From Sphingomonadales bacterium 63-6 (GTDB lineage: Bacteria > Pseudomonadota > Alphaproteobacteria > Sphingomonadales > Sphingomonadaceae): a stretch of 36,186 nucleotides of DNA. Every line of letters starts with the position of its first letter. Within the stretch, counting starts at the first letter, position 1. Both the position numbers and the translations under genes were made by a program. Positions 2,993-35,998 of the stretch are shown in pieces. Location of the stretch: the NCBI GenBank assembly GCA_001898545.1, contig MKUB01000196.1, positions 1 to 36,186 on the forward strand, written 5' to 3'. The notes beneath the pieces are model-generated. The model saw nothing but the letters and a program-made list of their open reading frames with translations. It ran no database searches and was not told the origin of the DNA.

Positions 2993-4642
2993 ATGCTGAA
3001 TGATCCAGATGCAGTCCGAGTTGCCGCGGCCTTGAGAGACTGCTTTGCGACGATCGCCCGTTGCGAGCAGGATTTGCACGCGGCTCGCCGTCAGAAATGT
3101 ATGGGCAACGCGGACGAAGTGGGCGATTTGGTAAACGCTCTCAAGACAGACTGCGCAAAGATCGACGATCAATTAGAAGAAGCTACAGACATCGACGCCA
3201 TACTGTCAGATGCACCAACAATGACCGTAGATGTACTTCTTTCGACATTAGGCGAACTTCCCACACCGGCATCTGCATATCCAACCAACCCAGATGAAAT
3301 TCCGAAATGGATTTCTTCCTTCATAGTGAAGGCGCAATTGCTAGATGGCTGGCTTGAGCCCGCAAACAATACCGACATGACCTTGTCTAAGGAGCAGGCT
3401 GAATTCCGTGATATTTTTGATACCAATGGTTATTTACAACTAACCGATGGCGCATTGCTCATCCGTCGACGAATTACGCGATGGCAAGGTGATGATGACG
3501 AAGTAGAAACTTTTGGATTATTCGCTCGATATTTGCGCGAAGTAACTTATATTCCTGCCCTTCTCGACTGCGATGACCCTGACATTTTAAAGTATACCGG
3601 CAATCCAATATCATCCGGCTTCTACCTTTGGAATAGCGATACAATTCTATCTAACCCACTTCCAACAGACCCGAAGATAGCAGTAGCTCCACTTGCCGAA
3701 CGCGGTAGCGATGTTGCATTTGTGCCAAGCGCCTGCCGGAGCAAATATGCATTGAATCTTAATTACGATGAAAGCCGCTTCGCAGCCGCGTTGGCTCGCG
3801 CCCTCAACGAGAATGTAAACATTCTGCTCATTCCTGAAATGGCCTTGCCAGAAGGCGATCCGTCAGACTTTGCTGATCGCATGCGCAAGCTCTTTCTTGA
3901 GGTCCGTGCTACACACTACAACCAGAGCGGAGAAGTCGGGCAACTCTGTTTCGTGATAGCTGGCGTCCTTGGCGGTGCTGGTCCGGATGGCCACCATAGA
4001 AACTACGCTGTAGCATTTGATGCTTACGGCGAGCAGCCCGAAGGCTTCCAACAGCTCAAACTCTCACATTGGAATATCACTCGAAGCGAGCAGGATCGCT
4101 TTGGGATTACGCATTATCAGGCAAAAAACGGAGATCTAGCTGACCCGATCGTTGAGAACTCTTTGCCAGCAGAATGCCTTTCAATTCTCGAAATTCCGGG
4201 CGTAGGCCGGACCGCCACATTGATCTGTGCGGATATGTCGCAGAATAATCCTGGCGATTGGTTAAGCCTTAACGCCGTGCTCGATTGGATTTACGCCCCA
4301 ATCATGGATAAATCGACCTGCTGGGAAATTTCTGACCAACAGAACACCCCGCGACCTTGGATTGTAAACCGCTCTTATCGGGCAGCGCTGCTAACACGAA
4401 CGGTCGTCATCACCACTAACAGCATGTCACTAAGCCGCTGGGTTAATGAAGCAAACAAACTGTCAAAAAGCACATGGCCTCAATATTCCGAAGTCGGAAT
4501 CGGCTTAGCAATCAACGGACGTGTTGACGTGCCCACGCAATGCCACGTTTCGACTCCCATTGACGAGACGAATGTACTCATGGCTTTTGCACCGATGAAT
4601 CAATGGCCGCCCTTTCCTTTACCCCCAAATAATCAAAAATGA
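2993..4642 (+). CDS. Nitrilase-superfamily-like (carbon-nitrogen hydrolase fold) protein with novel N-terminal region
   Basis: 549 aa; ordered candidate triad E282 (NILLIPEMALPEG), K356 (FQQLKLSHWN), C412 (ATLICADMSQNN). Confidence 0.65.
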   Translation: MLNDPDAVRVAAALRDCFATIARCEQDLHAARRQKCMGNADEVGDLVNALKTDCAKIDDQLEEATDIDAILSDAPTMTVDVLLSTLGELPTPASAYPTNPDEIPKWISSFIVKAQLLDGWLEPANNTDMTLSKEQAEFRDIFDTNGYLQLTDGALLIRRRITRWQGDDDEVETFGLFARYLREVTYIPALLDCDDPDILKYTGNPISSGFYLWNSDTILSNPLPTDPKIAVAPLAERGSDVAFVPSACRSKYALNLNYDESRFAAALARALNENVNILLIPEMALPEGDPSDFADRMRKLFLEVRATHYNQSGEVGQLCFVIAGVLGGAGPDGHHRNYAVAFDAYGEQPEGFQQLKLSHWNITRSEQDRFGITHYQAKNGDLADPIVENSLPAECLSILEIPGVGRTATLICADMSQNNPGDWLSLNAVLDWIYAPIMDKSTCWEISDQQNTPRPWIVNRSYRAALLTRTVVITTNSMSLSRWVNEANKLSKSTWPQYSEVGIGLAINGRVDVPTQCHVSTPIDETNVLMAFAPMNQWPPFPLPPNNQK

Positions 4643-5024
4643 CGAACTCAACCTTAGCTAGATCAACTCGACAATATTACATTGATCACTCAATTTTTAG
4701 CTAGCTCGCCTGAACATAATTTGTTCCCGACAGCCACCTGAAAGCAGACCGTCATTCAGTTCTTGCCCCGTTATTCTGCGGGTCTTTCAATCGCAGCTGA
4801 GGGAAGGCTTCCAGAAACACGGCCAAAGCCACGATCGGGATCAGGCGGCGCCAGCGCCACCCTGATCGGATATTGCTGGATACGGGTTTTCCAATCGGGG
4901 ACCATTCGCCTGACCATAGGCGGAACATAATTGGAACATCCGATTCGGCCAACATGGTTCCGCACCTGACCCCCACCGCGTGGGAATGCTGGATTGATCC
5001 CGAGTTGCTGGCTACAATGTGCCC

Positions 5025-5588
5025 ATGGCGCAAAGGCATATATGGCTGTTCAGTCTGGCCGCACTGTTCAGCTTGAGTGCCTGTGGAGAGCATCTCGGCA
5101 ATTATGAAGTCGAAGAGGTGCGAAGGGTCTCCGAGATGCCGCGGGGCGACGCGGTTGATTTCCCGCACCCGGTTTACCGCGAATTTCTGCGTATCGAGCT
5201 TTCGTCCAGCACCAATTTGAACCGGATGGACACGGGGGCCGGCCTCTATGTCGATGCCGATTTTTGCCCGATGGACAATCGGCTGCAGATCATCGCGTTC
5301 GGGCCCTTGGCAACCGATGGCCATTCCGTGGAAAACTGGCTGCGAACCACCGCATTGCAACCGAGCGACAAGGATGGGCGCTTTCATTATTACGTCTATG
5401 TCGTGCCGCGATCACCCGCACGGAAGCCCTATTCCAATTCTCCTGACCTGATCCCAGAGTATGATCTGCGCACGGCAGACAAGGACATCTGCCTGAGGTT
5501 CTTCATCCCAGGATATAATATCGTGAAATCGAGATCAGACGTGGTGGAAGTGCCCGCCAGCGCACTTCAAACGGCGCTTCGTGACTGA
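5025..5588 (+). CDS. Putative lipoprotein of unknown function
   Basis: ORF 5019..5588 (GTG); ATG at 5025; signal with lipobox LSAC (MAQRHIWLFSLAALFSLSACGE). Confidence 0.55.
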   Translation: MAQRHIWLFSLAALFSLSACGEHLGNYEVEEVRRVSEMPRGDAVDFPHPVYREFLRIELSSSTNLNRMDTGAGLYVDADFCPMDNRLQIIAFGPLATDGHSVENWLRTTALQPSDKDGRFHYYVYVVPRSPARKPYSNSPDLIPEYDLRTADKDICLRFFIPGYNIVKSRSDVVEVPASALQTALRD

Positions 5589-5619
5589 AAACCCAAGCAC
5601 ATAACAGGCCGATAATTGC

Positions 5620-5730
5620 CTATTCGCCTGGCCGGGCGTGCTTCCTCACCACCCGAACGGCCAGCTTGCCCGCAACGAAGGCAAGGCAGGCGAGGCCCAG
5701 CAGAACCGCAATTTTGAGAACAGCCAGCAT
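5620..5730 (-). CDS. Possible small single-pass membrane protein (36 aa)
   Basis: Read by hand on the minus strand: MLAVLKIAVLLGLACLAFVAGKLAVRVVRKHARPGE stop; hydrophobic segment then basic tail. Confidence 0.3.
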   Translation of the reverse strand: MLAVLKIAVLLGLACLAFVAGKLAVRVVRKHARPGE

Positions 5731-5808
5731 GGCAAGGAATATAGCATCCGCTGGTGCCTGCGCCGACGCAATTTAGCGTCCAAACAACAGCCTGAATTCC
5801 GTGCGTAA

Positions 5809-5847
5809 TACAATGTAGCCCTTGACTACAATGTAGCCCTAAGCTAC
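5809..5847. promoter_or_regulatory. Candidate toxin-antitoxin operator
   Basis: TACAATGTAGCCCT at 5809 and repeated at 5827 (18-bp period), with inverted repeat GTAGC(ccTAA)GCTAC at 5833-5847, just before the toxin gene. Confidence 0.5.
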
Positions 5848-5856
5848 ACCTCGGAC

Positions 5857-6105
5857 ATGAAAGAGATCGTCTATACCCGCAACGCTCTCAGGGCCCTGCG
5901 CAGGATGCCCGCCAATGTTGCGGCGCGTATCCGGGCCAAGGTCCAGCAATATGCCGCCGATCCTGCTTCTCTGGCCAATAATGTGACCGAGTTGAAGGGG
6001 CGTGACGGCATCCGGCTGCGAGTGGGTGACTGGCGTGTCATCATGGAGGATGGCATCGTTCTGGCGGTTCTCGAAATTGGCCCGCGCGGCGGGATTTATG
6101 AATAA
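5857..6105 (+). CDS. RelE/ParE-superfamily toxin (HigB-like order)
   Basis: 82 aa, MKEIVYTRNALRALRRMPANVAARIRAKVQQYA...RLRVGDWRVIMEDGIVLAVLEIGPRGGIYE; followed by an HTH gene. Confidence 0.85.
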   Translation: MKEIVYTRNALRALRRMPANVAARIRAKVQQYAADPASLANNVTELKGRDGIRLRVGDWRVIMEDGIVLAVLEIGPRGGIYE

Positions 6106-6127
6106 GCCCCTCAATTAAAGGAGGAAC

Positions 6128-6472
6128 ATGATGGGCGAAATGGTGACTATCAGCCGGGCGGAATATGACCGGCTAATCGAAACGGCGGAGAATTTTGCGG
6201 ATCTTCGCGCCTATGATCGCGCCAAGGCCGCCCTGGCCGCTGGCGATGATGAACTCATTCCGGAAGATGCCGTGCGCCGCATTCTGGATGGCGAAAGCCC
6301 CCTGCGCGTTTTCCGCGAATTGCGCGGGTTTACGCAGGCCCAGCTGGGCGAACTCGCAGGCGTGAACCGGGTGCAGATCGCGGACATCGAAGCGGGCCGC
6401 AAATCCGGATCGATTGACACGGTAAGAAAGCTGGCCAGTGCGCTGAATGTGGCGATTGACGATCTGGTCTAG
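6128..6472 (+). CDS. XRE-family HTH antitoxin
   Basis: 114 aa; LRVFRELRGFTQAQLGELAGVNRVQIADIEAGRKSGSIDTVRKLASALNVAIDDLV HTH; 22 bp downstream of the toxin. Confidence 0.85.
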   Translation: MMGEMVTISRAEYDRLIETAENFADLRAYDRAKAALAAGDDELIPEDAVRRILDGESPLRVFRELRGFTQAQLGELAGVNRVQIADIEAGRKSGSIDTVRKLASALNVAIDDLV

Positions 6473-6478
6473 CTTCCT

Positions 6479-6496
6479 GCCGGGCCTATGCCCGGC
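6479..6496. terminator. Hairpin between convergent transcription units
   Basis: GCCGGGC-CTAT-GCCCGGC between the antitoxin stop (6472) and the Rz1-like stop (6499). Confidence 0.5.
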
Positions 6497-6498
6497 TC

Positions 6499-6840
6499 TT
6501 AGAATACACCGAACAGCCGGGAGCGACTGGCCTTGACGGCCTGCCTGTCCCGTTCCTCGCACCGCTCCACGATGCCCACTGCCGCGCGATAGCGATCATT
6601 CGACTTGTCGAGCTGGCCGGTCTGGGCATCGCCAAAGATCATCCAGTCCGCCAGCGATTGGCCTGCCGGCAGGGCAGCGCCCGGCACTCCCTCGCGCCAT
6701 TCATCGGGTAGCAGGCGGCTGCAGGCACTCGGGGCGGCCACGATAGGCGGCGCGCTTACACAGGCTGCGCAGGCCAGCAGCATGGGCGGCAGGGTCCACA
6801 GGCGCATCTGCGCCCGGCGCGGAACGGATTTCATGTGCAT
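6499..6840 (-). CDS. Rz1-like outer-membrane spanin lipoprotein (overlaps Rz in another frame)
   Basis: MHMKSVPRRAQMRLWTLPPMLLACAACVSAPPIVAAPSACSRLLP; lipobox-like LLAC; start lies inside ORF 6701..7096. Confidence 0.55.
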   Translation of the reverse strand: MHMKSVPRRAQMRLWTLPPMLLACAACVSAPPIVAAPSACSRLLPDEWREGVPGAALPAGQSLADWMIFGDAQTGQLDKSNDRYRAAVGIVERCEERDRQAVKASRSRLFGVF

Positions 6841-7096
6841 TCTCCGATGAGAGACTATCGGCAGCAGCCTCGCTGGCGATCTGTCCGCCGATTGTGGCCA
6901 CCGCATCGCTGCCGCTTTCAACGGCAGCCCCGGCCAGATTGCGGTTAAGCCGGGCATCCACTTTGGCGGATTTCCCGCCAGTCACATTGGCGAGCAGCCA
7001 CCAGACGCCAAAGCCAAGCAGTGCCGCCCCGATCACCCATGGGGCAAGCTTGCGCCAAGGGCGGGTCAATGGAGCGCCCCCAGCCCTTCCCGGCAC
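6701..7096 (-). CDS. Rz-like inner-membrane spanin / lysis accessory protein
   Basis: N-terminal TM (LAPWVIGAALLGFGVWWLLANVTG) and C-terminal LRSLCKRAAYRGRPEC; directly after the endolysin and overlapping Rz1. Confidence 0.6.
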   Translation of the reverse strand: MPGRAGGAPLTRPWRKLAPWVIGAALLGFGVWWLLANVTGGKSAKVDARLNRNLAGAAVESGSDAVATIGGQIASEAAADSLSSENAHEIRSAPGADAPVDPAAHAAGLRSLCKRAAYRGRPECLQPPATR

Positions 7097-7656
7097 ACCC
7101 TGGCTTCACGCGCCCGCCGGGCGACCAGACCGCGCGAGACGGCGCCGCCTGCGCGGTTCCACCAAATTATGGCACTACACCCGGCGGGATAGTTGAATGC
7201 ATTGAACCGGGTTCGCGCAGTGGACGCGCAATAGCGACCGGGGCCCACATTATAGGCGAGCGAGACGGCGGCGAAGCGGGGGCCTTCCCGGCGGCGCTCG
7301 GTCACGGGATCGGCGGAAAGGGCAAGGCCGGGCGTGCAGGCCATGACAGCGGAGGCATGTTTCACCAGCTCTTCTTCCAGCATGGCCGCGCATTGGCTTT
7401 CGGTGAATTTCATCCCCGGCAGGATGGGCCGCCCCTGATAGGTAGTGATGCCGTCGCAGGCGGTGGGCACGCCCACCATGTCCAGATAGGCCACCAGATA
7501 TTGCCGCCCGGAAATGTGGCGGACCTGCAGTTGCCCGGCCTGCCCCAGGCTGGCTTCCACCTTGCGACCGCTTTCTTCCATCGGGATGAAAGCCCCCAGG
7601 GCGAGTGCCACCCCGCTGCCCACCAGCATGGCGAGGGAGAGTTTGCCCCGGCTCAT
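7066..7656 (-). CDS. Phage lysozyme (GH24-type), N-terminal hydrophobic / SAR-like segment
   Basis: In ORF 7066..8097, ATG at 7656: MSRGKLSLAMLVGSGVALALGAFIPMEESGRKVEA...YLDMVGVPTACDGITTYQG...FAAVSLAYNVGPGRYCASTARTRFNAFNYPAGCSAIIWWNRAGG. Confidence 0.8.
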   Translation of the reverse strand: MSRGKLSLAMLVGSGVALALGAFIPMEESGRKVEASLGQAGQLQVRHISGRQYLVAYLDMVGVPTACDGITTYQGRPILPGMKFTESQCAAMLEEELVKHASAVMACTPGLALSADPVTERRREGPRFAAVSLAYNVGPGRYCASTARTRFNAFNYPAGCSAIIWWNRAGGAVSRGLVARRAREARVCREGLGALH

Positions 7657-11725: not shown

Positions 11726-13420
11726 ATGGCCTTTACCCTGACTGTCACCAATATGGGCTTTGCCGCGCTGGTGAATGCCCAGCACACAGGCACCGCCCCG
11801 GTCACCATTGCCGCATTCGGCCTGTCCGAAGATGCTCTGGCCCCCGCCCCCGCACTGACCAGCCTGCCGGGAGAAGTGAAGCGCCTGGCGACCCTATCCG
11901 GTGATCAGGTGGATGATGGCACCATTCACCTGGTGGTGCGCGACGACAGCGCCGACAGCTACACCATGCGCAGCGTGGGGCTTTATCTGGCCGATGGCAC
12001 CTTGTTCGCCATCTATGGCCAGGAAGAACCGATCATCGCCAAGGCGGCGGCTTCCATGATGCTGCTGGCGGTGGATGCCCGCTTTGCCAATATCGATGCG
12101 GCGCTGCTGAGCTTTGGCGATACCAACTTCCTCAATCCCCCGGCCACAACCGAGCGGCTTGGCGTGGTGGAGCTGGCGACGCTAGCAGAGGCTCAGGCGG
12201 GCGTGGATGCCGAACGCCCCGTGCCGCCCGCCGCCCTGCTGGGCGCCGTTACTGCCTGGCTGAATGCCCGCTTCGGCATGGGGAACAGCGGCATCTGGCA
12301 CCCCGGCAATGATGGGGCTGGATCGGGGCTGGATGCGGATTTGTGGCGTGGGCAGACCCCGGCGCAATTCCTGGACAGCTATGTCACTGCCGCACTGGTG
12401 CTGGCGCGGCTTGGCTTCACGCCGGTCAACAAGGCGGGCGATGTTATGACTGGGCCGCTCGCCCTGCCCGGCGCGCCCACTGCCAGCCTTCACGCCACCA
12501 CGAAGAAATACGTAGATGATCTGGTGGCAGGCGCCGGGATCGGCTTCACCCCTGTGAACCGGGCTGGCGACACCATGACCGGGCGCCTGACCCTGTCCGA
12601 TGTTCCGCTGAACATCATGCATGCGGCCAATAAGGGCTATGTTGACGATCAGACCGCCGCCGCTGCTGTGCTGGCCCGGCTGATGACAGTGGACGGCGCA
12701 GGGTCCGGTCTGGATGCGGATCTGTGGCGCGGGCAGACCCCGGCGCAGTTCCTGGACAGCTTCGTGACCACCGCCCTTGTCCTCGCCCGGATCGGCTACA
12801 CCCCGCTCAATCGCGCGGGCGACATTCTGGGCGGCTTCCTGACGCTGCATGCCGCGCCCAGCGCCGCAATGCATGCGGCGAACAAGGGCTATGTCGATAC
12901 TGCCGTGGCCGGGGCCGCGCTGGGCTTCACCCCGGTAAACCGCGCGGGCGATACGATGACCGGGCGGCTCACCCTCTCCGCCGCGCCCACTTCCAATTTG
13001 CATGCCGCCACCAAGCAATATGCCGACCAGCTGGTGACGGCGGCGGCGCTGCTGGCCAAGCTGGTGACCGTGGACGGAGCAGGCTCCGGCCTGGATGCCG
13101 ATATGCTGGACGGATACCACGCGGGCGATTTTGACCGCATTACCGCCAGAAGCCACGCCGCCACCGGCTATCGCATCCATGCCGATGGCTTCAAGGAAAT
13201 GTGGGGCAGCGCCTATGTGCCGGCAGGCGGCACCACCAATGTCGAGTTCCCCAATGGCGGCTTTTCCAGCTGGGTGAACCTCAGCCTGGGCGTGTCGATC
13301 CGCGCCAGCGGCGGCACGCAGGACAATGTGGGCTGGACCACCAAGAGCACCAGCGGCTTCACCCTGCGCAATGTCGAGGGGATCGGCCAGCAGGTGGAAT
13401 GGTCCGCCAGAGGCGTTTGA
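11726..13420 (+). CDS. H: Tail fibre protein (P2 gpH-like N-terminus, repeat-rich shaft)
   Basis: 564 aa; four copies of GFTPVNRAGDTMTGRLTL..AP...HAANKGYVDD-type repeats; downstream of I. Confidence 0.85.
   Translation: MAFTLTVTNMGFAALVNAQHTGTAPVTIAAFGLSEDALAPAPALTSLPGEVKRLATLSGDQVDDGTIHLVVRDDSADSYTMRSVGLYLADGTLFAIYGQEEPIIAKAAASMMLLAVDARFANIDAALLSFGDTNFLNPPATTERLGVVELATLAEAQAGVDAERPVPPAALLGAVTAWLNARFGMGNSGIWHPGNDGAGSGLDADLWRGQTPAQFLDSYVTAALVLARLGFTPVNKAGDVMTGPLALPGAPTASLHATTKKYVDDLVAGAGIGFTPVNRAGDTMTGRLTLSDVPLNIMHAANKGYVDDQTAAAAVLARLMTVDGAGSGLDADLWRGQTPAQFLDSFVTTALVLARIGYTPLNRAGDILGGFLTLHAAPSAAMHAANKGYVDTAVAGAALGFTPVNRAGDTMTGRLTLSAAPTSNLHAATKQYADQLVTAAALLAKLVTVDGAGSGLDADMLDGYHAGDFDRITARSHAATGYRIHADGFKEMWGSAYVPAGGTTNVEFPNGGFSSWVNLSLGVSIRASGGTQDNVGWTTKSTSGFTLRNVEGIGQQVEWSARGV
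12331..13093 (+). repeat. 381-bp (127-aa) superrepeat within the tail fibre gene
   Basis: GSGLDAD(LWRGQTPAQFLDS) anchors: ggatgcggat at 12331 and 12712, ggatgccgat at 13093; both intervals are 381 bp. Confidence 0.8.
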
Positions 13421-17994: not shown

Positions 17995-20333
17995 ACAAGA
18001 ACCTGCGCCTTCTCGTCAGCTTTGCCAGTTCCGACCGGCTGTCCGGCCCCCTGAAGAATATCGTGGGGCTGGGCCAGTCGGGCAGCGAACAGCTGGCCGC
18101 CATGAAGCGCGAGGCGCGCGATCTGGAAAAGGAAATGCGCAATGTGCAGGGCGAACTGAAGCGTTCCACCGGCAATGTTTCCTCCCTGATGAACCGCGAA
18201 CGCGACCTGGCCGACCGGATTGCCCGCACCAATAGCGAGATGGAACGCCAGACCAAGCTGCTGGCCATCAATGCCCGCGCCGATGCCATGCGCAATCGCG
18301 GTGCGGATCTGCGCTCTGCCGGGACCGAGAATATCGTAACCGGCGTGGCCATGGCCGCCCCGGCCATGCTGGCGGCAAAGCAGGCCATGACCTTTGAAAG
18401 CGCCATGGCCGATGTGCGCAAGGTGGTGGATTTCGACACGCCCCGGCAATTCGAGAAGATGGGGGACGATCTGCTGGAAATGTCCACTCGCATTCCCATG
18501 ACGGCGGAGGGCATGGCCCAGATTGTGGCCGCTGCCGGGCGCGCAGGCGTGGCCCGCAAGGAATTGCTGACCTTCACCGAAGATGCAGCGCAAATGGGCA
18601 TCGCCTTTGACACCACGGCAGAGGATGCCGGGGAAATGATGGCCAAATGGCGCACGGCCTTTGGCCTGGGGCAGGAAGATGTGCGTGGTCTTTCCGACCA
18701 GATCAATGCCCTGACCAATTCCTATGGCGGCAATGTGGGCGCCGTGGCCGGGATTGTGACGCGCATCGGCGCGCTGGGCAATGTGGCGGGCGTGGCCGCA
18801 CCGCAGATTGCCGCCATGGGCCAGCTGATGAATTCAGTGGGCGTGGAAGAAGAAGTGGCCGCCACTGGCATCAAGAACATGATGCTGGCGATGACCAAGG
18901 GGGACAAGGCCACCAAGAGCCAGCAACAGGCCCTGAAATCTTTGGGCATCGACGTGGCCGGGCTGGCCAATTCCATGCAGAAGGATGCGGGCGGCGCGAT
19001 CCTGAACCTGCTGGAAAAAATCCGCCTGTTACCCAAGGAAGCGCAGGCCGGGACGCTGACCCAGCTATTCGGATCGGAAAGCGTGGCCGCCATCGCGCCG
19101 ATGCTGACCAATCTGGACCAGCTGAAAAAGAACCTCACCCTGGTGGGGGATAGCACTGCCTATGCCGGCAGCATGCAGAAGGAATATCTGGCCCGCATCG
19201 CCACCACCGAAGGGGCGCTGGGGCTGGCGAAGAACGGCCTTTCCGCCGTGAACATCACGCTAGGGCAGGCCCTGCTGCCCACCATTACCGAAGGCGCGCA
19301 GAAAGTGGTGGCCATCGCCAATTCCGTGCGCGCCTGGACGAAGGAACATCCCGAGCTTTCCAAGGGCCTGATGCTTGGCGTGACCAGCCTTGCAGCAATG
19401 ACCATTGGGCTGGGCGCGTTGAAAGTGGGGCTTGGGCTGGCAATCGGGCCATGGGCTTCGCTCTGGCGCCTGTGGAAGCAGTTTCAGGTTCTGAAGGAGG
19501 CAGGAGCCTTCGTCTCCGCATTCAGCAAAATCCGGGGTGCAGCGATGCTGCTGGGACAAGGCTTCGCCCGCGCAGGGGCATTGATGGCAGCTAACCCCAT
19601 GGTGCTGATCATCGGTGCAATCGTGATTGCCCTGGCCGTGGCGGGCTATCTGATCTGGCGGAATTGGGACACAATCAAGGGCGCCTTCAATTCCGGCCTG
19701 GCCATGCTGTCCGGCGCGTGGAACTGGCTGAAAGGCACTTTCATGCGCTTCCCCTATCTATTCGGCCCCATCGGTGTGGCCGTGGCCTTTGTCATCCGCC
19801 ATTGGGACGGGATCAAATCCGCCTTTGGCGCCGGGCTGGACTTCCTTGCCGGATTGCCGGGGCGGATGCTGGCCATGGGCAAACAGATCATGGCCGGGCT
19901 GCTGAATGGGCTCGATCCGCTGGGCCTGCGCAACCGGCTGCTGGACATTGCCAAAGCGGGCATCACGGCCTTCAAGAACTTCTTCGAGATCAAATCCCCC
20001 TCCCGCCTGATGATGCTGCAGGGCAGCTTCATCACCCAGGGCCTTGCCAGCGGGATTGAGCGCGGCGGGGATGGGCCCGTGCGGGCGAGCCGGGCCATGG
20101 CAGGCGATGTGGCCATGGCCGCCATGCGCCCCCGCCCCTTGGCCCTCGCCCCCGCACGCGGCGGCGGCATGGCGGCGGCGAACAATAATTTCACCTTCGG
20201 CCCCGGCGCCATCACCATCAAGGCTGCACCGGGCCAGAGCGCGGCCAATATCGCGGATGAAGTTGTGGCTGAATTCCGCCGCCTGGCGGACGGCAAGGCC
20301 GCCGCGAAGCGATCTTCCTTTTCCGATCAATAG
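17991..20333 (+). CDS. T: Tail tape measure protein
   Basis: 780 aa; coiled N-terminus, hydrophobic central segments, TMP-typical FESAMADVRKVVDF...SPSRLMMLQGSFITQGLASGIERGG. Confidence 0.9.
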   Translation: MNKNLRLLVSFASSDRLSGPLKNIVGLGQSGSEQLAAMKREARDLEKEMRNVQGELKRSTGNVSSLMNRERDLADRIARTNSEMERQTKLLAINARADAMRNRGADLRSAGTENIVTGVAMAAPAMLAAKQAMTFESAMADVRKVVDFDTPRQFEKMGDDLLEMSTRIPMTAEGMAQIVAAAGRAGVARKELLTFTEDAAQMGIAFDTTAEDAGEMMAKWRTAFGLGQEDVRGLSDQINALTNSYGGNVGAVAGIVTRIGALGNVAGVAAPQIAAMGQLMNSVGVEEEVAATGIKNMMLAMTKGDKATKSQQQALKSLGIDVAGLANSMQKDAGGAILNLLEKIRLLPKEAQAGTLTQLFGSESVAAIAPMLTNLDQLKKNLTLVGDSTAYAGSMQKEYLARIATTEGALGLAKNGLSAVNITLGQALLPTITEGAQKVVAIANSVRAWTKEHPELSKGLMLGVTSLAAMTIGLGALKVGLGLAIGPWASLWRLWKQFQVLKEAGAFVSAFSKIRGAAMLLGQGFARAGALMAANPMVLIIGAIVIALAVAGYLIWRNWDTIKGAFNSGLAMLSGAWNWLKGTFMRFPYLFGPIGVAVAFVIRHWDGIKSAFGAGLDFLAGLPGRMLAMGKQIMAGLLNGLDPLGLRNRLLDIAKAGITAFKNFFEIKSPSRLMMLQGSFITQGLASGIERGGDGPVRASRAMAGDVAMAAMRPRPLALAPARGGGMAAANNNFTFGPGAITIKAAPGQSAANIADEVVAEFRRLADGKAAAKRSSFSDQ

Positions 20334-20344
20334 GAGCCTCCGCC

Positions 20345-20725
20345 ATGCTGATGGCCCTGGACCAGTTCATCTTCGAAATCGGCACGCTGCCCTATACCGA
20401 GCTTCGCCACCGCTTCGAATGGCGCTTTGCCGAAGGGGACCGTTTTGGCGTGCGCCCGGCCACGCAATTTATTGGCCCCGGCGCGGAAAGCGTGGACCTG
20501 TCCGGCGCGCTTTATCCGGGGGACGGGATTGGCGCCTATTCCTCTATCGAGACTATCCGCGAGCTGGCTGCGCGGGGCGATTCCTACACGCTGACCAGCG
20601 GCGCGGGCGAAGTGCTGGGAGAATTCACCATCCGCTCGCTGGAACTGACGCAGAGCCTGTTCTTTGTGGACGGGGCCCCGCGCAAATCGGATTTCTCCCT
20701 CTCGCTGGTGCGCGCCGATGGCTGA
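20345..20725 (+). CDS. U: Phage tail protein U
   Basis: MLMALDQFIFEIGTLPYTELRHRFEWRFAEGDRFGVRPATQFIGPGAESVDLSGALYPG. Confidence 0.9.
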   Translation: MLMALDQFIFEIGTLPYTELRHRFEWRFAEGDRFGVRPATQFIGPGAESVDLSGALYPGDGIGAYSSIETIRELAARGDSYTLTSGAGEVLGEFTIRSLELTQSLFFVDGAPRKSDFSLSLVRADG

Positions 20726-21734
20726 CCTGCCCTTTGCCACATGGCTGGTGATGCTGGACGGGAAGGATATGACCGACAAGCTGAACCCGCGCCTGCTTTC
20801 CGCCAGCATTACCGAAAAGCGGGCCGAGGAAGCCGACCAGCTGGACATCGTGCTGCAGGATGCGGACGGGCTGCTGGAATTGCCCAGGCCGGGCGTGGAG
20901 CTGGAAATCTCCATGGGCTGGCAGCGCGGGGCGGGCTTGCCGCTGGGGCTGGTCCACAAAGGCCGCTTCCGCGTGGACGAGGCGAAGTGGAGCGGCGCGC
21001 TGGACATCGTGACCATCCGCGCCCGCAGTGCCGATTTCACCGATGCCTTCCGCGTGCGGCGGGAACGCAGCTTTGTGGGCAAGAGCCTGCGGGACGTGCT
21101 GACCGCCATTGCCGGGGAAAACGGCCTGGGCACTGCCATCGACGCCGCGCTGGGCGGGAAGACCATCCCGGCGCTGGGGCCCGGCGCGAAAAGCGATGCC
21201 GCCCTGTTGATGCTGCTGGGCAAACGCTTTGATGCCATGGCCACGGTGAAAGCGGGCAAGCTGATCTTCGCCCCGATCGGCAAGGGCAAGGCCCCCGGCG
21301 GCGGCACCATTCCCACCGTCACCATCGACCGGGCCGACACCAACGGCGCGGAATACGAACGGATAGAGCGGGAGAATTACGGCGGCGTCATCGCCGTGTG
21401 GCATGACAAGGCCACTGGCAGACGGCAGGAAGTGCAGGTTGGCGGCAGCGGAGAGAGCGATGCCAAGCCCAAGCGCATCCGCAAGACCTACGCCAATGAA
21501 GCCGACGCCCGCCAAGCTGCCGAAGCCGAAGACAGCCGCCTGACCCGTGCCAAGGCGAAGCTGAGCTTCACCCTGCCCCTGGGGCGACCGGATATCTATC
21601 CGGAAACGCCGGTGACGGTGAAGGGGTTCAAAGCGGAGATCAACGCGCGGAAATGGGTGGTGGCGGAACCGGTGCACACTATGGATGGAGGTGGCGGGTT
21701 GTTTTCCAAGCTGATGTTAGAAGCAGTCGGGTAA
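20718..21734 (+). CDS. D: Late control protein D / baseplate hub
   Basis: ATG at 20718 overlapping the U stop; MADLPFATWLVMLDGKDMTDKLNPRLLSASITEKRAEEADQLDIVLQDADGLLELPRPGVELEISMGW. Confidence 0.9.
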   Translation: MADLPFATWLVMLDGKDMTDKLNPRLLSASITEKRAEEADQLDIVLQDADGLLELPRPGVELEISMGWQRGAGLPLGLVHKGRFRVDEAKWSGALDIVTIRARSADFTDAFRVRRERSFVGKSLRDVLTAIAGENGLGTAIDAALGGKTIPALGPGAKSDAALLMLLGKRFDAMATVKAGKLIFAPIGKGKAPGGGTIPTVTIDRADTNGAEYERIERENYGGVIAVWHDKATGRRQEVQVGGSGESDAKPKRIRKTYANEADARQAAEAEDSRLTRAKAKLSFTLPLGRPDIYPETPVTVKGFKAEINARKWVVAEPVHTMDGGGGLFSKLMLEAVG

Positions 21735-21755
21735 CATCACTCCGTCTCGGTATAA

Positions 21756-21777
21756 CCCACGCTTTTCATTGCGTGGG
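21756..21777. terminator. Hairpin downstream of gpD
   Basis: CCCACGC-ttttcatt-GCGTGGG. Confidence 0.4.
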
Positions 21778-21817
21778 AATTGAGGTTCACTCCCCATTAT
21801 CAACAAGGGGCACTAGA

Positions 21818-22354
21818 ATGGGTGAGATCAAGCGAGTTCACACTCTGATTTACGGCTTGGTCTATCCTGCGCTGCTGGGGACATACCTGACTACGCTGGC
21901 GAGCGATCCGCCTTTGGGCGGATTGGTATCGTGGCCTTGCTTGATCGCCGTCTATTTCGTGCTGTTGTTTGTCGTTGGTTGCGATTCAGGCCAAACCTAC
22001 AGCATTCCCCAGGCGCTGCTTGATGCTGCGGAAATCATCGTCCTGTTCTTCGTTGTTCGCGGATTTGGGTATTTCGGATCGCCCGAATGCTCCGCTGATT
22101 GCGAACCGGGGTCGATCAGCCCCGCCCGATGGCTCTTGCCCCTCGCGTTCTTGTTGCCGATAGTTTGGCGGGCAGCTTCCGATTGGAAGGGTTTTTCCTC
22201 TGGCATGGGGATATTTCTGACGATCCTGTCGGGGCTCGCAATGCTGTTCAGCTTTATCGCGCTCAATATGTGGACATTGGGAATAACGGCGGTGCTGTTG
22301 TTGGTTTATGCCCTTCTGGCCGTATTCGGTCGCGTCGCGACGGAAAGCGCCTAG
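21818..22354 (+). CDS. Multi-pass membrane protein (moron cargo)
   Basis: ATG at 21818; MGEIKRVHTLIYGLVYPALLGTYLTTLASDPPLGG..., several TM segments; lies between the two gpD 3' copies. Confidence 0.65.
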   Translation: MGEIKRVHTLIYGLVYPALLGTYLTTLASDPPLGGLVSWPCLIAVYFVLLFVVGCDSGQTYSIPQALLDAAEIIVLFFVVRGFGYFGSPECSADCEPGSISPARWLLPLAFLLPIVWRAASDWKGFSSGMGIFLTILSGLAMLFSFIALNMWTLGITAVLLLVYALLAVFGRVATESA

Positions 22355-22393
22355 TTCACATACGCGGTCAGCACCACGACCTTTGGCGTCAAA

Positions 22394-22623
22394 ACGCCCG
22401 CCAAGCCGCCGAAGCCGAGGACAGCCGCCTGACCCGCGCCAAGGCGAAGCTGAGCTTCACTCTGCCGCTAGGGCGGCCGGACATCTACCCGGAAACGCCA
22501 GTGACGGCGACGGGGTTCAAGGCGGAGATCAACGCGCGGAAATGGATGGTAGCGGAGGCGAGCCACACCATGGATGGGGGTGGCGGGCTAGTTTCGAGAT
22601 TGATATTGGAGGCGCTCATTTGA
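22394..22623 (+). pseudogene. Duplicated 3' end of gpD
   Basis: Gap-free 230-bp match to 21505..21734; ARQAAEAEDSRLTRAKAKLSFTLPLGRPDIYPETPVTATGFKAEINARKWMVAEASHTMDGGGG (65 of 76 aa identical by hand count). Confidence 0.85.
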
Positions 22624-22714
22624 AGTTGATACTTAAGCGGCTCACATTCTGGAAATTCGTTGACTTTCCCTTGTCGACTATTTGGGTTCTAGCAGAACGA
22701 TTATCGGGGACTAC

Positions 22715-23929
22715 ATGTCAAAAATCGATTTTGGCGAACATGGCGGCGGACTTCGACATTTCGATGTCGTAGAAGAAGCGCTTGATTACATCTCACAGCG
22801 CATCGTGGAATTTCGGCCTGACGACACATTTGCAGAGTCCGAAACATGGAGGAAGCCGATCGTACATCGATGGCTTGAGATTCAGGAAGAAATTATTAGG
22901 CGGCGCGATGCTGATCTAATGGCCGAGCGAGAGCCAGATTTCGAGTTAAATGGCTTTCTAGCGTTGAAGGCAGCTATTCGGAGAGATTCAAAGGCAGGCG
23001 AAGCCCTGTTCGCGATTAACGCTGAATTTGGCTCAAGTGCTGCCCGTAGCGCAGCATGGTTCGCCACACGACTTCCCGACGAACAAATCTCCATGCCTAA
23101 CACTCGCGATGGGATCATCGGTGTTGTCGCATTCAGCGAAGCAATGGTTGGATCAGGCGATGCTGCTCACAGAGCTAGTCAGATCGCATACAAAAATCTC
23201 GTCAAATCCATACAGAATGACGTCGAAGAGCATCGACGGCAGCTGTTGGATTATTGTGAAAACCACGAAGCGAAAGTAGGCGACCTCAACATTCGCTTGG
23301 AACAAGAGATGCGTCAGTGGAACGAATGGCGTACCGTCACAGGAGGAGAGGTTCAAGCAGACCGCCAGCAATGGTCTGAAGATTGGAATAGCGCTTACAA
23401 CGCCTTCACCGAACAATTAAGCATCGAGGCGCCAGTTGCACTATGGAACTTGCGCGCATTAGAACACACAAGGAATGCTAGGCGCTTACGCCTTTCGATC
23501 GCTAGCTTTTGCATTATCGGTGCATTTTTGCTTATTGGGTTAATTCCGATTTCGTTGAAATCGGTGCATCACCTCATGGGAGACCCGAATGCCTCGGCTG
23601 GGCAATTTAGTCCGCATGAATTAATATTCTCGGCTTCGTTATTACTCTTCTATCTCACCATGTTTTTCTGGCTGATGCGGATAGTAGTGCGCATGTATAT
23701 GACCGAGCACCATCTTGGTATTGATGCAAAATCCCGTGCAGCGATGGCTGAGACATATCTCTCCCTGACAAAGCAACGTGTAGCCACCGATCAGGATCGG
23801 GCAATTGTGCTCGCGACGCTTTTCCGTCCGGTCGTCGACGGAATTGTGAAAGATGACGGTCTACCCGCAATTACACCAGCAGCTATCTTGTCAGGATTGG
23901 CTGGAGGAAAAGCTCATGCAGGCAATTAA
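22715..23929 (+). CDS. Membrane protein of unknown function, resembling DUF6161
   Basis: 404-405 aa; two TM helices (SIASFCIIGAFLLIGLIPISL; ELIFSASLLLFYLTMFFWLM) then LGIDAKSRAAMAETYLSLTKQ...RAIVLATLFRPVVDGIVKDDG. Family recalled, not searched. Confidence 0.5.
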   Translation: MSKIDFGEHGGGLRHFDVVEEALDYISQRIVEFRPDDTFAESETWRKPIVHRWLEIQEEIIRRRDADLMAEREPDFELNGFLALKAAIRRDSKAGEALFAINAEFGSSAARSAAWFATRLPDEQISMPNTRDGIIGVVAFSEAMVGSGDAAHRASQIAYKNLVKSIQNDVEEHRRQLLDYCENHEAKVGDLNIRLEQEMRQWNEWRTVTGGEVQADRQQWSEDWNSAYNAFTEQLSIEAPVALWNLRALEHTRNARRLRLSIASFCIIGAFLLIGLIPISLKSVHHLMGDPNASAGQFSPHELIFSASLLLFYLTMFFWLMRIVVRMYMTEHHLGIDAKSRAAMAETYLSLTKQRVATDQDRAIVLATLFRPVVDGIVKDDGLPAITPAAILSGLAGGKAHAGN

Positions 23930-23936
23930 CTACGCA

Positions 23937-24737
23937 CTATCTGCCCAGCTTGAGGATCCGCTCCGCTCGTTGAATTCGGTATTTGGCGCCTTCCCAATTG
24001 CCGTGAAAACGAAATGCATCACCATCGGAGAAGGCAAAGCGCCAAGGTTCAAATACCAGAGGGTGTAGTACGCCCTGCTGTCCTTCCAGGCGCACGTACC
24101 ATTCCCCGTGAACGTTGAAGACTGTGCCATAAACACCGTTCAGAACGCTCATGCCCTCTGGCGCTGGAAGACCCTTGAGTAGCTGGCTTGCCGCAGGTCG
24201 GCTTGCAAATAGTTTGTCGGCCAAATTCTCAGCGCTGAAAGTGCCGTTCTGATTATCTTTAACAGTTCTGGCAGGCGCGTCGATCGCGGCCGCTATTTTT
24301 TCCGAAATCTTCCGATCGATGTTTACGGTGTTTCCATCACCATTGATCACGATATTAACTTGTCGCGCCTGATCGCGTGCAATAGGTTCATTGAGAGCCT
24401 TGATGGTCTTACGATCTTGAGCTGTGATTTTTCCCTTTTTGAAGCCTTGAACAATAGAAATCACATCAGCCAAGAACCCAACATATGCACCCAACTCTTT
24501 GATATATAGACCGGCGGCAGCTGCGCTCAAAGTGCCGGCAACAGCAAATTCAATCCACCAACTGCCGGTTCCCGAAGCGTGAACCGTCAACTTCAGGTGA
24601 TTTCGTCGCCTTTCGAAGCGTTGGAAATTAGTCCCGACTTCCGCAATCATGGCACCGAGGAGTTGGGCATCTATCACCCCATCGGTTTCGTATTTGATGC
24701 GAAGGAACGGAATGTCCCTATCGGCAATCACCTCCAC
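23937..24737 (-). CDS. Hypothetical protein in the lysogeny operon
   Basis: 266 aa with AGG AGG-type SD; contains a hydrophobic segment and QVNIVINGDGNTVNID. Confidence 0.5.
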   Translation of the reverse strand: MEVIADRDIPFLRIKYETDGVIDAQLLGAMIAEVGTNFQRFERRRNHLKLTVHASGTGSWWIEFAVAGTLSAAAAGLYIKELGAYVGFLADVISIVQGFKKGKITAQDRKTIKALNEPIARDQARQVNIVINGDGNTVNIDRKISEKIAAAIDAPARTVKDNQNGTFSAENLADKLFASRPAASQLLKGLPAPEGMSVLNGVYGTVFNVHGEWYVRLEGQQGVLHPLVFEPWRFAFSDGDAFRFHGNWEGAKYRIQRAERILKLGR

Positions 24738-24842
24738 CCCACACCTCCTGTTTTTTTATTGGATGGCGCCGCAGCGTAACTAAGAATCAACAACGCTCAC
24801 CTTGGTTCATGCTGGCCGCAAGGCCAACCATTTGCCTTTGGA

Positions 24843-25895
24843 TTAGCCTTCAAGCTCGGCAATCCGCTCCAACAGCGCCTTTTCGAACTTATAGATGTCA
24901 ATCGCGCCAGCCACTGAATGGCGCGTCTCATCTTTGCCGGTGAACAGCCCCAGATAGCGGACGTTCTCGCTGTTGAAGTGAAGCCGGGCGAGCGGCTTGC
25001 GATTATTGTCGTCCAGCAGGACCGCACAGTAAGACTTTGCATCGCGGATCACGACGCGCGCCGGATCGATCACACGGGCCGCAATTGCCCGCACGATGTT
25101 GTAACCGGCCAGTTCTTCTTCCGTGGTCACAATCTCGTCAGCGCCAGCCACCTCAACGGGTTCCTCCTCATGGGGATTGGAGGCGCTCAGCGCTGAATTC
25201 AGCCGGTCGTTGACCTTGTCACGGATCAGGCCGCTGATCGAACGGGTGATGTGTTCTTTGAAGGTTTCCCGCACCTGCGGAGTGAGATTGCCTTCATGGA
25301 TGCGGCCAGCGATCAAGCGCACGAACTGATCCGAAGGGCTGGCAAATTCCTTTTCCAGTTCCGCATCGACAAGCGATTGCAGCTTCAGGCTGCCAGCCTC
25401 GCGAATGATCGCATCGACATCGAAGGATTGCTTGGCAAACTTCTCCAGCGTCCGAAGGTCTGTCTTGCTGTATCGCTCAAGCGTAAACTCGAAGAACGGC
25501 ACTTCGTCCATGCGGTTCGCAGCGTCGATGTCAGAGTAGAATTTGTAGATAACGCCATTGGTCAGCACCGCGACGCGCACTTCCTGAATGGCGGAAAAAT
25601 ACCGGAAAAGCTGGGATGCGTGCTTCAGGTTAAGCTCGCCGTTGGCTGGCTTGCATTCAACCAGCATGCGAATGGCATCGCCATCCTTGATGGCGTAATC
25701 GACCTTTTCGCCCTTCTTCGTCCCCACATCGCAGGTGAATTCTGGCACCACCTCGCCGGGGTTGAACACATTGTAACCCAGGGCTTGCAGGAAAGGCATA
25801 ACAAGAGCGTTCTTCGCCGCTTCCTCTGTCGCCAGAACTTCCCGGTGCGCACGCATCGTCCGCGCGACTTCGTCAATCTTCGATCCCAAATCCAT
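24843..25895 (-). CDS. Orphan type I restriction HsdR N-terminal-like nuclease domain protein
   Basis: ATG at 25895 (ORF to 25919); VDYAIKDGDAIRMLVECKPAN gives D...ExK; ALGYNVFNPGEVVPEFTCDVGTKKGEKVDYAI typical of HsdR_N-like proteins. Confidence 0.7.
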   Translation of the reverse strand: MDLGSKIDEVARTMRAHREVLATEEAAKNALVMPFLQALGYNVFNPGEVVPEFTCDVGTKKGEKVDYAIKDGDAIRMLVECKPANGELNLKHASQLFRYFSAIQEVRVAVLTNGVIYKFYSDIDAANRMDEVPFFEFTLERYSKTDLRTLEKFAKQSFDVDAIIREAGSLKLQSLVDAELEKEFASPSDQFVRLIAGRIHEGNLTPQVRETFKEHITRSISGLIRDKVNDRLNSALSASNPHEEEPVEVAGADEIVTTEEELAGYNIVRAIAARVIDPARVVIRDAKSYCAVLLDDNNRKPLARLHFNSENVRYLGLFTGKDETRHSVAGAIDIYKFEKALLERIAELEG

Positions 25896-25915
25896 AGTGC
25901 CCCCCATTCTCGTCG

Positions 25916-26572
25916 TCACATCTTCCGAACGATCCCCACTACGCGGCCGAGGATGTGCAGTTCGCCATCGTGTGCCACTTCCGGCGGGACCGCCGGGTTA
26001 TCGGATAGAATCTTCACGCCATCCGGAGTCGGCCTCAGTCGCTTGACCATGCCGCTGCCGCAATACGCAACAGCCCATATCTTGTCGGCCAGCGTCATGC
26101 TTTGCTGCGATGTATCGATCAGCAGCAAGTCACTGTCGTGGATGGTGGGCATCATGCTGTCGCCTGAGCCCTGGGCGAAATAGACCGCTTCTGGATTGGC
26201 GCTGGTATATTGGCGTAGCCAGCCCCGGCTGAAGTGGCGGACCGTTTTGGTTACCGGGACTTCGAAGGCTGTCGAGCCCATGCCGAAGCGGAGATCGATT
26301 TCTTGGACTTCGACCAGGTCGAGTTGGTCGGCCAGCACAGTTGCCGATGGCGCAGGCAGTGCCCCGACAGAAGGATCGTCCGTTTCGCCTGAAAGGTATT
26401 CGGCTGTAGTGCCTAGCGCGCGCGCAATCTTGTGAAGATGCGACGATCCGGAACTGATCCCCGACTCTAATTTGCCGATTGTCGCCTGTGACAGGCCAAC
26501 CTGCTTCGCAAGCTGAGTCTGAGAAAGACCCAGCTTGTTCCGCAATTCCGCGATTCTCTCACCCGTGCGCAT
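25916..26572 (-). CDS. Phage repressor, HTH + S24 (LexA/CI-like) peptidase
   Basis: MRTGERIAELRNKLGLSQTQLAKQVGLSQATIGKLESGIS HTH; GSGDSMMPTIHDSDLLLID and MVKRLRP give a Ser/Lys dyad. Confidence 0.9.
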   Translation of the reverse strand: MRTGERIAELRNKLGLSQTQLAKQVGLSQATIGKLESGISSGSSHLHKIARALGTTAEYLSGETDDPSVGALPAPSATVLADQLDLVEVQEIDLRFGMGSTAFEVPVTKTVRHFSRGWLRQYTSANPEAVYFAQGSGDSMMPTIHDSDLLLIDTSQQSMTLADKIWAVAYCGSGMVKRLRPTPDGVKILSDNPAVPPEVAHDGELHILGRVVGIVRKM

Positions 26573-26586
26573 AGCAACACACACTT

Positions 26587-35920: not shown

Positions 35921-35998
35921 GTGAGCCCCTGCGCAGGCAGGGGCCTCCGCGAATATCGCTCCATCGGGGGAGAGGCCCCTGCCTGCGCAGGGGCTCAC
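35921..35998. repeat. 27-bp perfect inverted repeat (terminator or REP-like element)
   Basis: GTGAGCCCCTGCGCAGGCAGGGGCCTC (35921-35947) and its exact reverse complement (35972-35998), 24-nt loop. Confidence 0.85.

Follow-up and report, generated by a model that had tools for sequence, protein, structure and literature searches.

Why does a P2-like prophage carry the 3′ end of its baseplate hub gene twice, with a gene for a predicted membrane protein between the two copies? The question is raised by the region between gpD and the repressor gene of a P2-like prophage in the window, by which we mean the whole 36,186-nt contig stretch of Sphingomonadales bacterium 63-6 that was analysed. The features of this region are listed below.

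20718..21734, + strand: gpD, baseplate hub / late-control D protein, the intact left anchor gene (phrog_52, E 3e-104; weak match to Pfam Phage_GPD)
21505..21734, + strand: native 3′ segment of gpD, first copy of the repeat (repeat comparison)
21818..22354, + strand: cargo 1, 178 aa, four predicted membrane segments (hydrophobic), without family match
22394..22623, + strand: gpD′, putative displaced gpD 3′ end (scar), in frame, without usable start codon (repeat and phrog_52 match)
22715..23929, + strand: cargo 2, 404-aa DUF6161 protein with an AbiZ-like C-terminal half and two predicted membrane segments (PF19658, E 3e-21)
23937..24737, − strand: cargo 3, 266 aa, no family assigned (open reading frame)
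24843..25919, − strand: endonuclease-like gene (HSDR_N), common to the sister prophage L008 (phrog_4225, E 1e-102; Pfam HSDR_N)
25916..26584, − strand: CI-like repressor, the right anchor gene, 3′ end towards the slot (phrog_4, E 7e-45; HTH_3 and Peptidase_S24)
25132..26092, no strand: block probably exchanged between the window and L008 lineages, spanning the repressor 3′ end and the larger part of the endonuclease gene (98.1% vs 93.2% identity)

The duplicated gpD 3′ end

As had been noticed in a preliminary description of this DNA, the last 230 bp of gpD (21505-21734) recur without gaps at 22394-22623, at a spacing of 889 bp. The copies are identical at 192 of 230 nucleotides (83.5%) and at 66 of 76 amino acid positions, stop codon counted (86.8%); the earlier hand count of about 86% was thus correct. 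The BLAST core of the repeat (88% over 201 bp) gave an E-value of 4e-63, therefore a chance match is out of the question. An assembly artefact was ruled out because the copies differ at 38 sites. No other direct repeat in 19000-26000 comes near it in length, and a genome search revealed no further occurrence of the repeat in the same genome. The only other long repeat of the window is an internal direct repeat of ~420 bp (72%) at 12311-13109, in a tail-fibre-like gene (11726-13420). An inverted repeat of ~80 bp (80%) is present at 35921-35998, near the right contig end.

The duplication encloses the membrane-protein gene and is followed by a second cargo gene, both as described before. On its own, gpD′ matches phrog_52, the family of gpD, with an E-value of 3e-19. 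Its reading frame is open and intact over 75 codons, and the in-frame start codons inside it would yield at most 40 aa. We consider gpD′ best read as an untranslated scar between the membrane-protein gene and the DUF6161/AbiZ-like gene.

The 38 differences between the copies are split 24/8/6 over codon positions 3/1/2 and amount to 22 synonymous and 10 non-synonymous changes of codons. Along gpD and gpD′ of the window, agreement is 1.00-0.83 at positions 1 and 2, compared to 0.80-0.47 at position 3. This excess at position 3 argues that the copies diverged as working gpD genes in separate phages and not by slippage, and it supports the earlier suggestion of a related phage as source (24 of 38 differences). 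Most of the divergence would have arisen while both copies were under selection as gpD. When gpD′ was compared with the gpD of another phage, as had been proposed, its distance to the gpD end of the sister phage L008 (83.5% identity) turned out to equal that to the native gpD end (83.5%), which fits an origin in a third phage of the same group. No donor was found when viral contigs were searched for the exact DNA pattern of gpD′, nor was a donor phage with the junction between gpD′ and cargo 2.

A variable slot between gpD and the repressor

The related prophages share a common gene order, gpD (+), a variable interval and the repressor (−). In the 55 loci in which both genes were found, the interval ranges from ~0 to 7.4 kb, and its 164 open reading frames fall into 134 protein clusters. 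Aligning the interval among relatives, a check proposed beforehand, thus gave a shared frame with variable content. The hotspot claim has held: cargo varies at this site, and the fragment is not a conserved gene of its own. G+C content is ~65% in gpD and drops to ~48-55% in the cargo.

Cargo 1 was seen only in the window (200 family genomes searched). Cargo 2 matches AbiZ in PADLOC with an E-value of 8e-11; since the match is limited to residues 208-381 (profile positions 224-383 of 398), similarity does not extend over the full length, and we label the predicted protein AbiZ-like and not AbiZ. Four relatives of cargo 2 were found, all distant (29-38% identity), and in the short loci fetched none of them had gpD, the repressor or the endonuclease nearby. 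Cargo 3 had no match in PHROGs, Pfam or PADLOC. A scan limited to sigma-70-like promoters found none in the cargo, and terminator-like sites were not above their number in shuffled sequences. Among the slot genes of the window and L008, no transposase or integrase was recognised.

In the slots of relatives we found genes for Dsr2, IetS, type II restriction-modification, type IIG-like, TIR, PDC-S13 and GmrSD/NsnA-like systems. This is a list of presence, without a background rate, and it suggests that the slot cargo of these phages is at least partly anti-phage defence. The window's own genome harbours a second, distant P2-like prophage (L073, G000:C46; gpD 41% identical), the slot of which holds a PDC-S13 / type I specificity-like defence gene. 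In a metagenome viral contig (L042), the first 91 gpD residues are 100% identical; the contig stops there, which places the slot outside it.

The closest relative of the window is prophage L008 in Altererythrobacter sp. CC-YST694 (the same place as G001:C1), with 89.8% identity left of the slot and 93.7% right of it. Its cargo is wholly different, a protein of 281 aa whose HNH match is weak and falls short of the Pfam cut-off, and no gpD remnant was found in its slot. The L008 slot contains a 140-bp remnant of the repressor 3′ end (85.7% identity), located just past the endonuclease gene, and this putative repressor scar is the mirror image of the gpD scar in the window. Moreover, the block 25132-26092 is 98.1% identical between the two prophages, compared to 93.2% elsewhere on the right side, and its score was reached in 0 of 100 block permutations. 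Codon-3 identity is 94-95% inside the block and 67-74% on both sides of it, therefore the excess is not simply due to protein constraint. The endonuclease gene and the repressor 3′ end thus probably moved together, exchanged as one piece between the two lineages.

Displaced ends of border genes and linkage of the gpD tip

In 125 loci searched with the gpD profile, second gpD pieces were confined to the window, L036/L037 and L093, always as 3′ ends directly downstream. L038 has the remnant of L036/L037, with an internal stop. In L036 and L093 no cargo is present between gpD and gpD′. Smp131 and some Burkholderia phages match the gpD end of L036 but leave the remnant uncovered. An extra gpD piece in L125 was rejected as a frameshift split. 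Searching 401 genomes of the order with a profile of the gpD C-terminus added remnants in L164 (G608) and L165 (G618), so that gpD 3′ remnants behind varied cargo, which the preliminary description had proposed to look for, do occur in other phages. A class-level genome search added no clear nearby remnants.

The order in L164 is gpD, a 345-aa cargo, a 562-bp gpD remnant that starts 9 bp past the cargo stop codon, further genes and the repressor. Its gpD copies agree up to about codon 300 and diverge sharply after that, third-position agreement being ~0.72-0.84 to codon 280 and 0.24-0.40 beyond codon 305; positions 1/2 agree at 0.96 vs 0.80 at position 3. In L165, gpD is followed by a 122-aa cargo, a degenerate gpD remnant containing stops, DNA methyltransferase, HEPN and GmrSD-like genes and a repressor-like gene.

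Self-comparison of loci also revealed repressor 3′ remnants in L137 (67 bp, 84%) and L124 (75 bp, 87%), both with a minus-strand gene between remnant and repressor, as in L008. Duplications in L087, L088 and some other loci involve neither gpD nor the repressor and were set aside. A duplication in L054 was likewise rejected as a scar, being of a different, transposase-associated kind: at 4219-7296 this locus has a transposase-like gene and duplications of 175 and 487 bp (98-99%) near a second HTH repressor-like gene.

All remnants represent the 3′ part of a gene, in direct orientation and within the slot. They vary in length (62-562 bp), in start point and in the gene concerned, and the varying start points argue against a site-specific recombinase. 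Scars are a minority (repressor ~3 of 55 slots, gpD a similar share), therefore the majority of exchanges must either proceed through two homologous joints or end in loss of the scar. A literature search, itself no proof of absence, did not bring up any previous account of displaced ends of gpD or the repressor.

We then asked whether the gpD tip follows the gene or the cargo. Codon-3 identity was determined for 129 pairs of related gpD genes from 54 loci, the tip being the last 30 codons. In pairs with the same downstream DNA, it was 0.78 in the gpD body and 0.82 in the tip, whereas with different downstream DNA it was 0.74 in the body and 0.48 in the tip. The pairs are not independent; as a guard, permutation was done within related groups, and none of 5000 permutations matched the difference. 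A test based on a tree would be preferable. The gpD 5′ end and the 120 bp upstream of it showed no effect of the downstream DNA (0.86-0.90 in both classes). In 10-codon bins, the drop sets in ~60-80 codons before the gpD stop and peaks over the final 20. A clear recombinant is L111, with a gpD body closest to that of L112 and a tip and downstream DNA closest to those of L090, L096 and L100. The same comparison on the repressor side offered almost no contrast, as nearly all close pairs across loci share their flank.

At the level of sequence, these comparisons show that the gpD 3′ tip shares its inheritance with the DNA that follows it, not with the remainder of the gene. Thus, the cargo would move with its neighbour's 3′ end by recombination inside gpD, and scars would be displaced old ends.

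Probable exchange of gene ends together with cargo

Cargo turnover, tip-cargo linkage and displaced ends of both border genes can all be read from the alignments. The order of events, the recombinase and the function of the cargo are matters of inference. It is very likely, in our judgement, that P2-like prophages have in this region a reusable slot for accessory genes, located between the convergent 3′ ends of gpD and the repressor and refilled by exchange of an anchor-gene end plus cargo. A related phage in the same cell would donate a segment consisting of an anchor-gene 3′ end and its cargo. One joint would form by homologous (homeologous) recombination inside the anchor gene, which would stay whole. 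The other would be non-homologous and cut the resident copy of the same anchor, the 3′ end of which would be pushed inward as an untranslated scar. Phage recombination between homeologous sequences of this divergence is on record, including pairs of a homologous and an illegitimate joint (PMC2327257, PMC3945230). In the window, the outcome would be the order gpD, membrane-protein cargo, gpD′, AbiZ-like cargo. Cargo 1 may have come in with the present gpD end and displaced gpD′, or else gpD′ and cargo 2 were joined behind cargo 1. The direct repeat may allow the phage to drop cargo 1 in one step. Of the successive acquisition by means of the gpD 3′ end that was proposed earlier, the role as anchor is supported; gpD is not the sole anchor, as the repressor 3′ end acts likewise, and either acquisition may have come first.

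Three other explanations were weighed against this exchange. Tandem duplication of the gpD 3′ end within one phage, by slippage or unequal crossover, with later insertion of cargo 1, is favoured by the finding of direct repeats that are in register and separated by unique DNA, and by the remnants in L036-L038 and L093, which sit directly behind gpD. However, a dead internal copy would decay at all codon positions, while the copies in the window and L164 differ mainly at position 3; the window copies are also as distant from each other as from another phage's gpD, and the repressor shows the same displacement of its 3′ end. We therefore regard tandem duplication as improbable. An integrase or transposase that inserts cargo site-specifically and in doing so rebuilds the target's 3′ end, in the manner of elements that integrate at tRNA genes, would account for a single place behind a conserved gene, but not for scars that differ in length, start point and gene, nor for the graded homologous exchange in gpD tips. 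With no such enzyme recognised in the window or L008 slots, and a transposase-like gene in one slot only (L054), this explanation is very improbable. The open frame of gpD′ and its retained profile match could point to a functional small gene, for instance a hub domain, spare or modified, that selection maintains. This we find hardly credible given its short possible products, its lack in L008, the stops in the L038 and L165 remnants and the different gpD codons at which remnants begin.

The exchange of gene ends with cargo can be compared to known systems. The antiviral hotspot of P2 itself adjoins cos and is bordered by gpA and gpQ; that of a Vibrio P2 relative lies between cI and the integrase (Rousset et al. 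2022, PMC9122126). The slot described here is similarly a small (~1-5 kb) interval between two conserved phage genes, with high turnover and many defence genes. Judged by its border genes gpD and repressor, it is not the gpA-gpQ locus. That study left the exchange mechanism open and suggested cos ends, whereas we attribute the exchange in the present slot to the 3′ ends of its border genes. Exchange by means of diverged homologous flanks is known from phage mosaicism (Martinsohn et al. 2008, PMC2327257; De Paepe et al. 2014, PMC3945230), and exchanges in which just one shoulder is homologous and the second joint illegitimate were foreseen there; unlike those general mosaics, one cargo slot is concerned here, in which displaced ends of both border genes are left. 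Orphan modules of CDI and Rhs systems (PMC3150448) also consist of start-less 3′ fragments downstream of a long gene, each with its own following gene, and their repeats could permit re-loading of stored cargo. Their 3′ fragment is the variable toxin, whereas here it is the ordinary gpD tail-hub C-terminus and the cargo is the gene behind. Like phage morons, the cargo consists of accessory genes of lower G+C among structural genes, but it is linked to the end of a phage gene. The kind of hotspot is already known; new here are its location behind gpD and a clearer mechanism.

A further proposal, for which we see an even chance, is that P2-like phages carry "tailed cassettes". Each cargo gene would bring a border-gene 3′ end (gpD or repressor) as a portable homology arm, which would target it and keep the essential gene whole; displaced ends would become new landing or deletion sites, so that the slot could stack, swap and drop cargo from both sides.

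How phage defence-gene hotspots are refilled so rapidly is an open question (PMC9122126), and displaced ends record past swaps. If cargo is swapped along with the end of the essential gene beside it, this would explain how the slot is refilled without breaking the virus. Whether the end of an anchor gene follows the cargo or the gene can be asked of any hotspot, and tip-cargo linkage offers a way to find exact cargo borders. The refilling of hotspots is thereby made testable, including by a simple laboratory cross of two related phages, and the slot behind gpD is a further hotspot in which to seek new defence systems.
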